Origin: an uncultured Poribacteria bacterium
GTDB lineage: Bacteria; Poribacteria; WGA-4E; WGA-3G
Direction of reading: 5' to 3'
DNA: 64,000 nt
Assembly (NCBI GenBank): GCA_951812525.1
Contig: OX638316.1
Coordinates: 3,342,506 to 3,406,505, forward strand
Part shown: one piece after another, positions 48,932-61,051 of the stretch
How positions within the stretch are numbered: position 1 is the first letter of the stretch
Layout: the number at the start of each line of letters is the position of its first letter
Position numbers and translations under genes: made by a program
Notes under the pieces: generated by a model
What the model saw: only the letters and a program-made list of their open reading frames with translations
What the model was told of the DNA's origin: nothing
The model's database searches: none

Positions 48932-50077
48932 CTAACTCACCCGCTGTAAGAGGGTTGTGATCCAGTTGACACCAGCCAATTCAAGCACTACACCCAATAT
49001 CATAAGAACGAAAATAAGGAATTTTCCCCAATCTTGACCTCTAAGGCTGCCGAGTAGCATCGGTTCTCTGGAGAGGTAGGCACTCGCTGCGTAAAGTTCT
49101 TCGCCAATTAAAGTATAGTCGCATGAGGCGATAAAGAACGGGAGTTGGTGCTCAGAGTCTGTGCCCGCAATCTGAATGGCACCGATGGAATTTCCTGTCT
49201 CAGCGAGAATAAGCGATTCCGCGAAAAATTGACCTTGTAGAAATATCGCCGCTGGTTTTTCACGAGTCATAATACCCGCTACACCCGCAGCGTAGGCGAA
49301 TTGGCTCTCGGTGAGAAAAAATATGTTGTCTTCGTTATAGGCATCCGGGCGACCTTCATCAAGATAGGATGTACGCACTACCTCACGCACTACGTTCGTA
49401 ACAATTGGATCCCGACAAGGAACATGCAACGGTGTTTCATAATCGGCAGTTCGCCGCGCAACTTGTCCCAAAATCGTCATACTCGCAATCGTCGGGACCT
49501 CCTCTACACGTCCTAATCCTAAACTATAGAGAATCGAGCGCCCCATTTCCGTCGCTCTACCAATCGCTTCGTCAACAGCTTCTAACCCGGGGATTCGTCT
49601 GACGAATATCTCTTTGCCGCTCCGAGCATAGTAGATATTCCAGACAATGCCAGCGGAAAAGAGAATCATTGCAATAAACAGCGGAATTTTACCAGTATGA
49701 AACAACTCGCCTGTCCCTTTAGCTGGTGCTGTTTCTTCGGAATCCACGGTCGCCTCTGTTTCAGTAACCGCTCGAACTACGTAGGCATAAGCAGACCCCT
49801 TTTCGATACTTGAATCGACATAAGTTGTCGTTCCAGCAGGTAGCAATGCACCAATTTCTTCGAGACCACCGCCTGCAATCCGTCGTAGGATTTGGTATCC
49901 ACTGATACTGCTCCTCTCAGGTGCCGCCTCCCATTTAATGGTGATACTGCTCCCATCATCGTTCGGGGTATCCATTGCCGTCACGTTTGATGGTGGTGTC
50001 AGTCCTTGGCTAAATGCAGTGCTAATGCCTATGCATAAAACCAAGTAGACAAGTAAGCATCGAATTGTTTTTCTCAT
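48932..50077 (-). CDS. Fibronectin III / DUF6754-like membrane protein, gene 1 of four-gene cluster
   Basis: A 381-residue protein. Signal peptide (to about residue 23), one fibronectin type III domain (about 27-115: PPSNVTAMD...ITIKWEAAP...YAYVVRA), a membrane helix (about 130-150), a ~195-residue domain, and a final helix (about 355-375). The large domain (GKEIFVRRIPGLEAVDEAIG, ILYSLGLGRV, FAYAAGVAGIMTREKPAA, TDSEHQLPFFIASCDYTLIG) resembles, from memory, the uncharacterised DUF6754 family. GAGGA precedes the ATG. It is the first and most distinctive gene of the cluster. Confidence 0.75.
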   Translation of the reverse strand: MRKTIRCLLVYLVLCIGISTAFSQGLTPPSNVTAMDTPNDDGSSITIKWEAAPERSSISGYQILRRIAGGGLEEIGALLPAGTTTYVDSSIEKGSAYAYVVRAVTETEATVDSEETAPAKGTGELFHTGKIPLFIAMILFSAGIVWNIYYARSGKEIFVRRIPGLEAVDEAIGRATEMGRSILYSLGLGRVEEVPTIASMTILGQVARRTADYETPLHVPCRDPIVTNVVREVVRTSYLDEGRPDAYNEDNIFFLTESQFAYAAGVAGIMTREKPAAIFLQGQFFAESLILAETGNSIGAIQIAGTDSEHQLPFFIASCDYTLIGEELYAASAYLSREPMLLGSLRGQDWGKFLIFVLMILGVVLELAGVNWITTLLQRVS

Positions 50078-56953: not shown

Positions 56954-57352
56954 CTTCTTTCTCCTGTCCGCAGCATTTTTGGATCGGCTTCTTTAATTTA
57001 AAATAAATACAATTACACGTTTATTAAAAACGATGCAATTGCTGTGAAGGATACGAAAAAACTGCTTGACTTTTCTAATAAGTATAAAGTATTATTTAAA
57101 ATAAGTCAAGGAAATCTGCAGGGCATTCAGTTTTCCTGTAGAAGGGAACTTCAAATTGTGCGTATAAACGCACAATTTGTCTTAGCATTATATTTCCCGA
57201 CTCCTCCCTGTAGGAGGGAACTCTGATTCCCGACTCCTCGGAAAATCCACGAAAATCGCGAAAACTTAACGACCTTGGGAAATCTGTAGGGCAGTTTTCA
57301 AGCCGGTATTGCAATGCCATGTATATCAAGATTATAGAGGAATTATCTCGGA
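56954..57352. other. Intergenic region upstream of the chimeric Omp85 gene
   Basis: It contains a possible promoter (TTGACT at 57066-57071, an 18-bp spacer, TATTAT at 57090-57095), a family B palindrome with 11-bp arms (57153-57163 and 57168-57178), and a family C unit (57209-57236). No gene is supported. Confidence 0.5.
57136..57236. repeat. Adjacent repeat family B and family C units
   Basis: CTGTAGAAGGGAACTTC, the palindrome AAATTGTGCGT/ACGCACAATTT with loop ATAA, and CTTAGCATTATATTTCCC make the family B unit. A family C unit (TGTAGGAGGGAACTCTGATT) follows directly. Confidence 0.7.
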
Positions 57353-60300
57353 ATGCCACTCGTATCTCGCGCGGTTCTATCCTACCTATGTCTATTCTAC
57401 ACACTCATGACCTTGCTGAATCTACACGTCCAATCTACACACGCAGCGGATCATGAAGTTGAAGGAAGTACACCCGGCAGAACTGCGACGGAATCAATTA
57501 CCGAAGCACAAAAATCAATATTAAAAACAACATCATCCTATACCTTTAGTTTCAAAGACGTTTACCAGATAAATCTAAGTTTAAACCTACCCGGGGACAT
57601 TGAATTCATCGTCACAGAGGGTGAGGTTGTTGACGTTACACTTGAAAAGCAGGCACAAGCGACAAACACCGAGCGCGATATTGCCACCCGCACATATCTC
57701 GGTAACATCTCCGCAACAGGAACTCACGACAATGGCACGCTTCACTTGAAAGTACAACTACTCGGAGGCGACAGTTCCGAAGCACCACCAAACCCATTTT
57801 TCGGCACCGAGAATTTACCAGCAACGCTCCCTAACCAGTTCCATCTGAAATGTACCATTAAAACCCCTTCAGATGTCTCTGTTAAGCTCCAATCAAAAAC
57901 AGGGGATATCCGCCTACAGCGCATTCGGGGTAAGATAGAAATTGCAGCGGAAACAGGTGATGTCCATTTAAATGAAACCTTAGGAAACTACAGTGTAACC
58001 CTAACAAATGGAGACATCAAGGGTGGAATTTTGTTGACACGCGGTCAAAACAAATTTGAAACAAAGAATGGGGCAATTGAGTTAACTGTCCTTGACACCG
58101 TTGCAGCTCCGATGGACATAACCGCACAAGGCGGTAGCATCCTATTACAGCTGCCAGAAAATTACACTATTGATGCCGTACTTGAGAGCGATAAGCAACA
58201 AGTTGTTATTAACCTACCCGCACAATTTGAGGATGATACTGAACTTGCTATTATTAACGGCGGCGGACCGTTATTTCGTTTGAAATCTACCGATGCAATT
58301 TCGCTTTTGCAAAGTATACCCGTTAAAGACCCCGCAAACATCATAACAAACACAGAAACAGATACATTACTGGATGCTGCTCAACCTGTTCCACAAACAA
58401 TGAAGCCTCCTATTATTGACGGAAATTTGTCTGAAATCGTGTGGCAAACAGCCAGCGTCCTCCCACCCTTTCAGAATTCAGATGGCACCGAGGAATCTGA
58501 GAGTTTGACCGAAACTTTCTTGATTTGGGATGCTGAAAATTTGTATATCGGAGTGAGGGCACATATTCCTTACTCGCAACTAATCCGTATCTCACAAACG
58601 CAGCGCGATTCACCAATTTGGGAGGACGAGTGCATTGAGATCATGATTGATGCCAATCCGCTAACGGATGTCTACCATCACTTTGTTATTAACCCGATTA
58701 ACGCACTCTTTGACCAGCAAGTCAGTAAGCCTGGAGAAGCTAGCTTCCGATTCGCTCCGCAAGAGGTCCAACTTACCTTGAACCAGCAAGCTATGCAGAC
58801 AGCGTTCAAGGCAAATAGCGCGTGGAACTCAGACGCACAAGTTGCAACACAGATTAATGCCAATTCTTGGAACATCGAAATCGCACTGCCACGCAAAATG
58901 CTGGAGAGACCGCCTCAGGTAAACTTACAAAATTCGTCCGATCTCAAAAATATATGGCTTTTTAACATTCACCGTAAGGCACAGCTGACTGTTAGCAATA
59001 TGGAACACCTCATGTCTACCACGCAGAGGGAATATAGTTATTGGTTACCGACTTACGATAACGAATATCCTTGGTGGCCCCATTCGCCACATGAGTACGC
59101 AGCACCACTTTCCGAGCGTATTGCCCCAGCGATGGGACTTCTGCACTTTGTAGACCGAGCACCGTCTTTCTCTGAGTCCTTTGCCTCCGAAGCGCAATTC
59201 CGAGTCGCAGCAATCGAAATTGAAGGCAATACTGTGATGCCAACGGAGGTCGTCCAACAACAAGTCCCTGTTCAGCTTGGAGATGTTATTACAAGCACAC
59301 AACTGTCGTGGTTACTTGCCGAGCTGCAAAATCAAGAATGGTTTAAAGATGCACGTTTAGAGACGAAACAGGTATCTACCGACAGTGATGCGTCTGAACA
59401 GTTTACAGCCATCAGTCTACTTGTTCGAGTAACAGAAGCACCCGTGTTGTTTGTTCACCAGATTAAGATTAACGGAAACAGAACTTTTCCAGAGGCATTC
59501 ATCAAGAGGTGGTTTCAATTAGAAGCCGGTTATCTCACCGTTGAACTTGCGAGACTCAAGCAACAACTGATTGCTGATTTTTATTCAAACCGCGGGTATG
59601 AATTCGCCACAGTTACCCATGAACGCGTCAACGATGTACTGACGTTTACCATTAACGAGGGGACCTTGCACGAAGTTCGTTTCACTGGAAACTCCCGAAT
59701 TTCTCGCACCGAACTATTGTCGGCACTCGATTTAAAGACCGCAGACATAGATGAAAAAGATAACCCACGGACATCTGATATCTACCATCGCACCCTCGGA
59801 CAATCGAAGATAAACCAGATGCGAAAGAGACTCAGTGAAACGAATGAGCACTTCAAATCTATCCAAGACTGGCGGGTCCAACGCGAGGGTGGGAAAAATA
59901 TAATGATTGTTGAGGTTGAGGAGCAACCGCTCACCAAAACTTCCGGTTTCCCGATCCTTCAATTCAACCGTGTTCACGGGTTGGTGTTAGGTGGCGGAGG
60001 AACGCTCGCTACCCGGCTCACAGGAAAAGAGCAGATTTTCGGCTCGGTGAGCCGTGGATTTTCCAGTAAACTATGGAATTATCAGGGTGGCATTGAGAAA
60101 GTTTTTTTTAATTGGCAGACGCTCAAGTTCGGTGCCAGTGTCTATAAGCTTACAGACATTAGTTCAAATATGTCGCTGCGTCCGGCTGAAATCAGTCTGA
60201 GTGCAGCCTACTACGGCTTTGCATCTCAGGATTATTACCAACGTCAGGGGGCTCAAGGATGGATAACCTTCGCGACTTCGGAGTGGAACTTTCTCAGACT

Positions 60301-61051
60301 TGAACTCACAACAGAAGTGCACGATAACCTCTCCAAATCAACAGATTGGAGTTACTTAAACCGGAACCAAATCAAACGAGGCAATTCGCGGATTGATCGT
60401 GGGCAATTAGAAAGCGTTTCACTGATTTATGCTTTTGATACACGCGATCACAAATCGTCTCTTACCCGGCATTTCCATACACTGTTTTTTGCAAATGAAC
60501 GGACGCGACGTGGGTGGCGTGGACAGTTCGGAATCGAAATCGCAGCTGGCGACTACGCCTTCAATTTCTACCGGTTTGAATTAATGCGCTATACTCCACT
60601 GTTTGGTTCGCATAATCTGAACGTCCGAATTGGAGGTGATTTTTCCAGCACTGCTTTGCCCAGACAGCGGCTTCTTCACCTTGGCGGTAGTGCCAACCTA
60701 CGCGGCTACGCTTTCAACAGATTTGCCGGAGATAACCGAGTACTACTTAATCTTGAGTATCGGCTTATCAAAGAGATAATTCTCAAGGAACCTGACGTTG
60801 TGCTTGGGTGGACGCTCAGCTGCTTCTTAGATGCGGGCACTGTCTGGTGGCATGACGATGTTCCGTTTTCTGATTTTAATACATTCATGGGACAACTCAA
60901 ATCCGCAATTGGCATCGGATGCTCCGTTTTCATAGATCCATCAGGAGATCCATCGCCTTGGAGTATCGCTGCTGAAGTCGCGGAACCGCTTGACGAATCG
61001 TTTTCGCTACAAAATCCGAAACTTATTTTGCGTTTGGAACGCATTTTTTAA
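57353..61051 (+). CDS. Chimeric Omp85/BamA-like outer-membrane protein with DUF4097-like and CBM9-like domains
   Basis: A 1232-residue exported protein. Signal peptide (to about residue 31, THAA). DUF4097-like beta region about 65-325 (KTGDIRLQRIRGKIEI, ETGDVHLNETLG, INGGGPLFRL). CBM9/DOMON-like carbohydrate-binding domain about 350-575 (PPIIDGNLSEIVW, IWDAENLYIGVRA, WEDECIEIMID). POTRA-type repeats begin near 616, 700 and 772 (IEIEGNTVMP, IKINGNRTFP, VRFTGNSRIS). A 16-stranded-type Omp85 barrel runs from about 865 to the terminal Phe, with the family motif GGSANLRGYAFNRFAGD near 1110. Omp85 proteins insert or secrete proteins across the outer membrane; a sugar-binding front end is unusual. 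The start has no clear ribosome-binding site but gives the signal peptide. Confidence 0.83.
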   Translation: MPLVSRAVLSYLCLFYTLMTLLNLHVQSTHAADHEVEGSTPGRTATESITEAQKSILKTTSSYTFSFKDVYQINLSLNLPGDIEFIVTEGEVVDVTLEKQAQATNTERDIATRTYLGNISATGTHDNGTLHLKVQLLGGDSSEAPPNPFFGTENLPATLPNQFHLKCTIKTPSDVSVKLQSKTGDIRLQRIRGKIEIAAETGDVHLNETLGNYSVTLTNGDIKGGILLTRGQNKFETKNGAIELTVLDTVAAPMDITAQGGSILLQLPENYTIDAVLESDKQQVVINLPAQFEDDTELAIINGGGPLFRLKSTDAISLLQSIPVKDPANIITNTETDTLLDAAQPVPQTMKPPIIDGNLSEIVWQTASVLPPFQNSDGTEESESLTETFLIWDAENLYIGVRAHIPYSQLIRISQTQRDSPIWEDECIEIMIDANPLTDVYHHFVINPINALFDQQVSKPGEASFRFAPQEVQLTLNQQAMQTAFKANSAWNSDAQVATQINANSWNIEIALPRKMLERPPQVNLQNSSDLKNIWLFNIHRKAQLTVSNMEHLMSTTQREYSYWLPTYDNEYPWWPHSPHEYAAPLSERIAPAMGLLHFVDRAPSFSESFASEAQFRVAAIEIEGNTVMPTEVVQQQVPVQLGDVITSTQLSWLLAELQNQEWFKDARLETKQVSTDSDASEQFTAISLLVRVTEAPVLFVHQIKINGNRTFPEAFIKRWFQLEAGYLTVELARLKQQLIADFYSNRGYEFATVTHERVNDVLTFTINEGTLHEVRFTGNSRISRTELLSALDLKTADIDEKDNPRTSDIYHRTLGQSKINQMRKRLSETNEHFKSIQDWRVQREGGKNIMIVEVEEQPLTKTSGFPILQFNRVHGLVLGGGGTLATRLTGKEQIFGSVSRGFSSKLWNYQGGIEKVFFNWQTLKFGASVYKLTDISSNMSLRPAEISLSAAYYGFASQDYYQRQGAQGWITFATSEWNFLRLELTTEVHDNLSKSTDWSYLNRNQIKRGNSRIDRGQLESVSLIYAFDTRDHKSSLTRHFHTLFFANERTRRGWRGQFGIEIAAGDYAFNFYRFELMRYTPLFGSHNLNVRIGGDFSSTALPRQRLLHLGGSANLRGYAFNRFAGDNRVLLNLEYRLIKEIILKEPDVVLGWTLSCFLDAGTVWWHDDVPFSDFNTFMGQLKSAIGIGCSVFIDPSGDPSPWSIAAEVAEPLDESFSLQNPKLILRLERIF

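Follow-up and report, generated by a model that had tools for sequence, protein, structure and literature searches.

A Toastrack-CBM9-POTRA-Omp85 fusion protein conserved across the Poribacteria

Every Gram-negative outer membrane contains Omp85 machines, which insert or move proteins there. A survey of 2014 divided them into ten classes, some of which carry a WD40, patatin or metallo module at the front, and its main text makes no mention of carbohydrate or sugar (PMC4104836). In the patatin-Omp85 protein PlpD (type Vd), the N-terminal module stays in the periplasm and is not secreted, and POTRA domains have never been observed outside this compartment (PMC11116518). A carbohydrate-binding-module (CBM) fold next to an Omp85 machine has been described in Flavobacterium (Bacteroidota), where BamH, a separate protein, is a subunit of the BAM complex (PMC12611786). 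How Omp85 proteins are coupled to the wall or to glycans is not settled, and a phylum-wide fusion of a CBM9 module with an Omp85 barrel bears on this question.

Module architecture of the window protein

The window analyzed here, a stretch of 64,000 nucleotides, corresponds to positions 3342506-3406505 in a Poribacteria genome of 5.06 Mb assembled as one contig (G000). Reading of the window sequence identified positions 57353-61051 (+) as a single intact open frame of 1232 codons, and inspection of the upstream sequence revealed a possible ribosome-binding site, AGAGGA, at 57336-57341 (+). The encoded protein comprises a signal peptide, a variable linker, a Toastrack/DUF4097 region (residues 61-335), a CBM9 module (345-600), three POTRA units (~615-862) and an Omp85 barrel (863-1232). 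The initial annotation had already described the uninterrupted frame and the signal peptide, and both stand. All its domain calls were likewise recovered by Pfam and Foldseek, with two adjustments: the CBM9-like segment, placed at 350-575, is better bounded at ~345-600, and the POTRA repeats, which are indeed present, are now fixed at three. The Sec-like signal peptide is a prediction by eye for residues 1-32 (about 1-33; 57353-57448, +), reading MPLVSR / AVLSYLCLFYTLMTLLNLHV / QSTHA, with cleavage near the junction of THA and AD.

An AF2 run with seven close sequences resolved the Toastrack and the POTRAs, was weak for CBM9 and failed for the barrel. The Toastrack region (57533-58357, +) passed the Pfam cut-off for DUF4097 (PF13349) marginally in the whole-protein scan, with 23.0 bits against 22.9. 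Its AF2 model is good, with 10-residue blocks reaching pLDDT 94, and matched 4qrk, 3pet and 4opw in Foldseek at probabilities of 0.99-1.00. As 4qrk and 4opw are exemplars of the Toastrack fold, a right-handed beta-helix (PMC11237479), the profile score and the fold match agree in assigning the region to this family. Toastrack domains have been proposed to act as protein-docking surfaces in envelope-stress complexes, there on the cytoplasmic side (PMC11237479).

POTRA scored 65.3 bits against a cut-off of 21.3 over three stretches in the whole-protein Pfam scan, and the AF2 model, usable in this region, contains three beta-alpha-alpha-beta-beta units. POTRA 1 (59195-59431, +; ~residues 615-693) is delimited by Pfam, by this secondary structure and by matches to BamA; POTRA 2 (59444-59659, +; ~698-769) by the best Pfam stretch (701-770) together with AF2 secondary structure; and POTRA 3 (59666-59938, +; ~772-862) by AF2 secondary structure and a match to the POTRA of 9ccg. 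The model of the second half of the protein matched BamA/Omp85 POTRA structures in Foldseek.

The Omp85 beta-barrel (PF01103; 59939-61048, +) ends in the C-terminal Phe1232. It scored 28.6 bits against a cut-off of 24, and 32 of 36 relatives matched the family at E<=0.01. The GGSANLRGY sequence noted in the initial annotation lies at residues 1111-1119 (60683-60709, +) and represents the Omp85 loop-6 (V/L)RG(F/Y) motif; in the barrel alignment, G252, G253, R258 and G259 are nearly invariant. A profile of the barrel matched 9ccg at E 4e-11, and the next best PDB matches were TamA structures. As to the 16 strands with a lateral seam that mark Omp85 barrels, the AF2 barrel reached a pLDDT of ~22 with its alignment of seven close sequences, and a strand count by dyad hydrophobicity gave 25 peaks against 22.2 +/- 2.3 in shuffled sequences, no better than chance. 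With a barrel above cut-off, at least one POTRA, the loop-6 RG(F/Y) and a C-terminal aromatic residue, the protein belongs to the Omp85 superfamily.

The CBM9 module and its predicted sugar clamp

The cut-out of residues 345-600 (58385-59152, +) matched CBM9_1 (PF06452) with 34.1 bits against a cut-off of 23.4. The whole-protein Pfam scan did not report CBM9_1, probably as a result of HMMER speed filters. Among 38 relatives, 36 matched CBM9_1 at E<=0.01, and a profile built from all 38 retrieved 1i82 (TmCBM9-2) at E 1.3e-10 and 7nwn at E 4.7e-5. Foldseek returned 7nwo, 7nwn and 4jpq at a probability of 1.00; because the AF2 model of this part is of low confidence, we regard this match as supportive only. 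The concern that the segment might not be CBM9-like, raised with the initial annotation, is thus answered by both Pfam and Foldseek.

The sugar clamp of TmCBM9-2 consists of Trp71 and Trp175 (PMC8280721). After an exact match to 1i82 had been confirmed, the TmCBM9-2 chain was added to the family alignment by MAFFT. Trp71 corresponds to W423 (58619-58621, +), a tryptophan in 49 of 52 relatives, and Trp175 to W575 (59075-59077, +), a tryptophan in 49 of the 50 relatives for which this position is occupied. E429 aligns with Glu77. Both the profile score and the aromatic clamp W423/W575 place the module in CBM9.

Over the folded modules, dN/dS among close relatives ranged from 0.09 to 0.24, with values of 0.09-0.16 for CBM9, 0.10-0.18 for the barrel and 0.17-0.24 for the POTRAs and Toastrack. 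CBM9, showing the lowest or near-lowest ratio, is under strong purifying selection. Conservation of the clamp tryptophans and the low dN/dS therefore point to the predicted sugar-binding surface being kept.

Distribution in Poribacteria and genomic setting

Poribacteria are best known as sponge symbionts. A tblastn search over 85 Poribacteria genomes, in which ten families were sampled (f1-f10), gave some match in every genome and full-length relatives throughout the phylum, several of them on one-contig chromosomes. All modules could be aligned in one frame in 52 ORFs from separate genomes and nine of the ten families (f1, f2, f3, f5, f6, f7, f8, f9 and f10); the domain order which the initial annotation proposed to look for elsewhere is hence present in 52 Poribacteria genomes. 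Mis-assembly or a chance joining of adjacent genes had also been considered. Since the identical join recurs in these independent assemblies, one-contig chromosomes among them, this explanation is already refuted and its probability is negligible. The fusion of Omp85 barrel, CBM9 and Toastrack is genuine and has been maintained throughout the phylum.

The most distant relative tested (L044, family f9, 28% identical) carries DUF4097, CBM9_1, POTRA and Omp85 in one ORF, all above their Pfam cut-offs. In divergent f5 and f7 members the CBM9 segment is shortened, and Pfam reported no CBM9_1 match for them. Three genomes of family f4 encode a relative of 651-695 aa (L058:3669-5621, +; L059:3782-5866, -; L060:3960-5957, +), in which the Toastrack runs directly into the Omp85 barrel and both CBM9 and POTRAs are missing. 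Some relatives thus do without the glycan arm, which weighs against the reading preferred below. In the barrel tree the short forms fall, on long branches, beside long forms from their own order (92/95), and secondary loss is the simpler reading because deeper lineages have the long form. A contig scan for relatives, with a reach of close relatives only, matched only Poribacteria; tblastn against plasmids gave only CBM9 matches, in Pseudoalteromonas.

Eight Omp85 barrels are encoded in the genome. Apart from the window protein, these are the housekeeping BamA (848 aa, 5 POTRAs), an Omp85 directly downstream of the genome's only TamB at 3.926 Mb, one PD40/WD40-Omp85, two proteins with a DUF4252-like front end (one over cut-off) and two POTRA-Omp85s. 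As the genome has its own five-POTRA BamA and a TamB-adjacent Omp85, we consider the window protein to be accessory. The initial annotation had stated that the periplasmic part of Omp85 proteins normally consists of POTRA domains alone, which is too strong given the described WD40-, patatin- and metallo-Omp85 classes (PMC4104836) and is contradicted in the same genome by the WD40 (PD40)- and DUF4252-Omp85 fusions. The latter combine a DUF4252 (or DUF4252-like) front end, a POTRA-like unit and an Omp85 barrel at L003:1126-3645 (-) and L002:1402-3354 (-), i.e., G000:C1 ~4.101-4.107 Mb; a further fusion of this kind lies at L074:3038-5140 (-). DUF4252 was found in 63 of 83 Poribacteria genomes, with many of the matches in frames of 780-870 aa that apparently represent the same fusion. 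A literature search on DUF5686, DUF5916 and DUF4252 returned nothing relevant.

The window gene is flanked by genes for a xylose-isomerase-like protein, adenylate kinase, a GcvT-like protein and parts of a TRAP transporter. Family f1 retains this gene order and f2 retains it in part; no neighbour is conserved across families, and elsewhere unrelated enzymes, an MFS transporter and a helicase adjoin the gene. The neighbours are metabolic, with no exoprotein gene among them. A DUF4097 protein without fusion partner is encoded 12 kb from the window gene (L065:2458-3588, +); it is probably a lipoprotein and carries repeated SGGSI(K/R) turns. Elsewhere in the window, positions 48932-50077 (-) encode a membrane protein with fn3 and DUF6754, which may form a conserved operon of unassigned function with two downstream genes (to 47476) that gave no Pfam match. 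At L105:11632-14637 (-), a protein of 1001 aa joins ECF sigma-factor regions 2 and 4 to a BNR/sortilin-type beta-propeller, i.e., a sigma factor-propeller fusion. Twelve further CBM9_1 matches were found in G000, at least one of them in a CBM9-DUF5916 outer-membrane protein (L004).

Proposed function and comparison with known Omp85 systems

Our preferred reading, tentative and with a chance slightly short of even, is that of an accessory TamA/BamA-like insertase with a periplasmic Toastrack-CBM9 arm that grips an envelope glycan. Judging from the Omp85 family, the barrel and the three POTRAs would insert outer-membrane protein (or lipid) alongside the housekeeping BamA. The Toastrack beta-helix, ahead of the POTRAs, could serve as a docking scaffold; POTRA topology and the PlpD precedent suggest that both Toastrack and CBM9 face the periplasm. 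Conservation of the tryptophan clamp makes a glycan the predicted ligand, and CBM9 would grip its end, be it peptidoglycan, LPS, exopolysaccharide or a glycosylated client. Against this, soluble glucan binding is not universal among CBM9 modules with both tryptophans (PMC8280721). Such a grip may anchor the machine at the wall or deliver glycan-bearing clients to the POTRAs. The idea put forward in the initial annotation, a coupling of insertion or secretion through CBM9 to peptidoglycan or to a glycan cargo, fits the conserved clamp and is possible. A more specific version, in which the clamp recognizes where a peptidoglycan or surface-glycan chain ends and links Omp85 insertion or export to wall growth or glycan cargo, appears improbable; if true, this glycan-gated insertase would be a phylum-wide machine never shown in a cultured model organism.

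The order of passenger, POTRA and Omp85 barrel is that of PlpD as first proposed, and the barrel might in the same manner export its own Toastrack-CBM9 part to the surface, where this part would act as an adhesin towards glycans of the host or of the cell itself. Solved relatives of the Toastrack bear the label 'putative adhesin', beta-helices are suited to secretion, and a surface glycan binder would be apt for a sponge symbiont. However, the N-terminal module of PlpD itself remains periplasmic (PMC11116518), a folded two-domain passenger of 500 residues would need unfolding, the protein has three POTRAs rather than one, and the short relatives still have their Toastrack fused straight to the barrel, so that we judge self-secretion unlikely. 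Another alternative is a structural tether, in which the barrel is mainly an outer-membrane anchor that the CBM9-Toastrack arm fastens to peptidoglycan, and insertion plays no part. The conserved clamp and the lack of a partner gene would suit a tether, as would the many other CBM9 modules of this genome that sit in large proteins, DUF5916 barrels being present in some of these. However, three POTRAs, the RGY motif and a C-terminal aromatic residue are all under selection, although a mere anchor could do without them; we hold the tether to be rather doubtful.

A further alternative is that the CBM9-like module has lost its sugar binding and serves protein-protein contacts or folding only. CBM9-like folds also bind haem (Nxr, ethylbenzene dehydrogenase) or are structural. 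In addition, the second clamp tryptophan was placed by MAFFT addition and not by a HMMER match. Against a mean column identity of 42% for CBM9 in the family alignment, however, both clamp positions are tryptophan in about 49 of 52 relatives, and loss of sugar binding seems to us quite unlikely. Together, the long fusion and the natural short form without CBM9 make it possible to test directly if outer-membrane insertion can be steered by the binding of a glycan.

With three POTRAs and the barrel matches noted above, the window protein resembles TamA. It is not TamA itself: the NCBIfam TamA model gave 15 bits against a cut-off of 625, tamB adjoins a different Omp85 gene, and TamA has neither Toastrack nor CBM9. 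BamA shares the combination of POTRAs and Omp85 barrel, and the POTRA model matches BamA structures, but the BamA model scored 67 bits against 297, there are three POTRAs instead of five, and a separate BamA is present in the genome. Like PlpD and other patatin-Omp85 (type Vd) proteins, the window protein has an extra folded domain ahead of POTRA and barrel; unlike PlpD, it has no patatin match, three POTRAs in place of one and two N-terminal modules. Two-partner secretion (TpsB) proteins can be set aside as well, with POTRA_2 and ShlB at 19.6 vs 24 and 18.5 vs 22.7 bits and no exoprotein neighbour. The barrel of 14 of 36 relatives matches DUF5686 (PF18939) at E<=0.01; those inspected were below the Pfam cut-off, and the window protein has no match.

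CBM9-DUF5916 proteins, found in this genome, likewise combine within a single protein an outer-membrane barrel and a preceding CBM9, but this barrel is DUF5916 rather than Omp85 and there is no POTRA. BamH is similar in that a carbohydrate-binding-module fold is attached to an Omp85 machine, whereas it is an unfused, separate subunit whose CBM fold comes from another family (PMC12611786). WD40-Omp85 and other classes of Heinz and Lithgow share with the window protein a non-POTRA periplasmic module on an Omp85 barrel, and the combination of Toastrack, CBM9 and POTRA is absent from the ten classes of their 2014 scheme (PMC4104836). With Toastrack-CBM9, DUF4252 and WD40 modules, the Omp85 front ends of Poribacteria have diversified beyond these ten classes.
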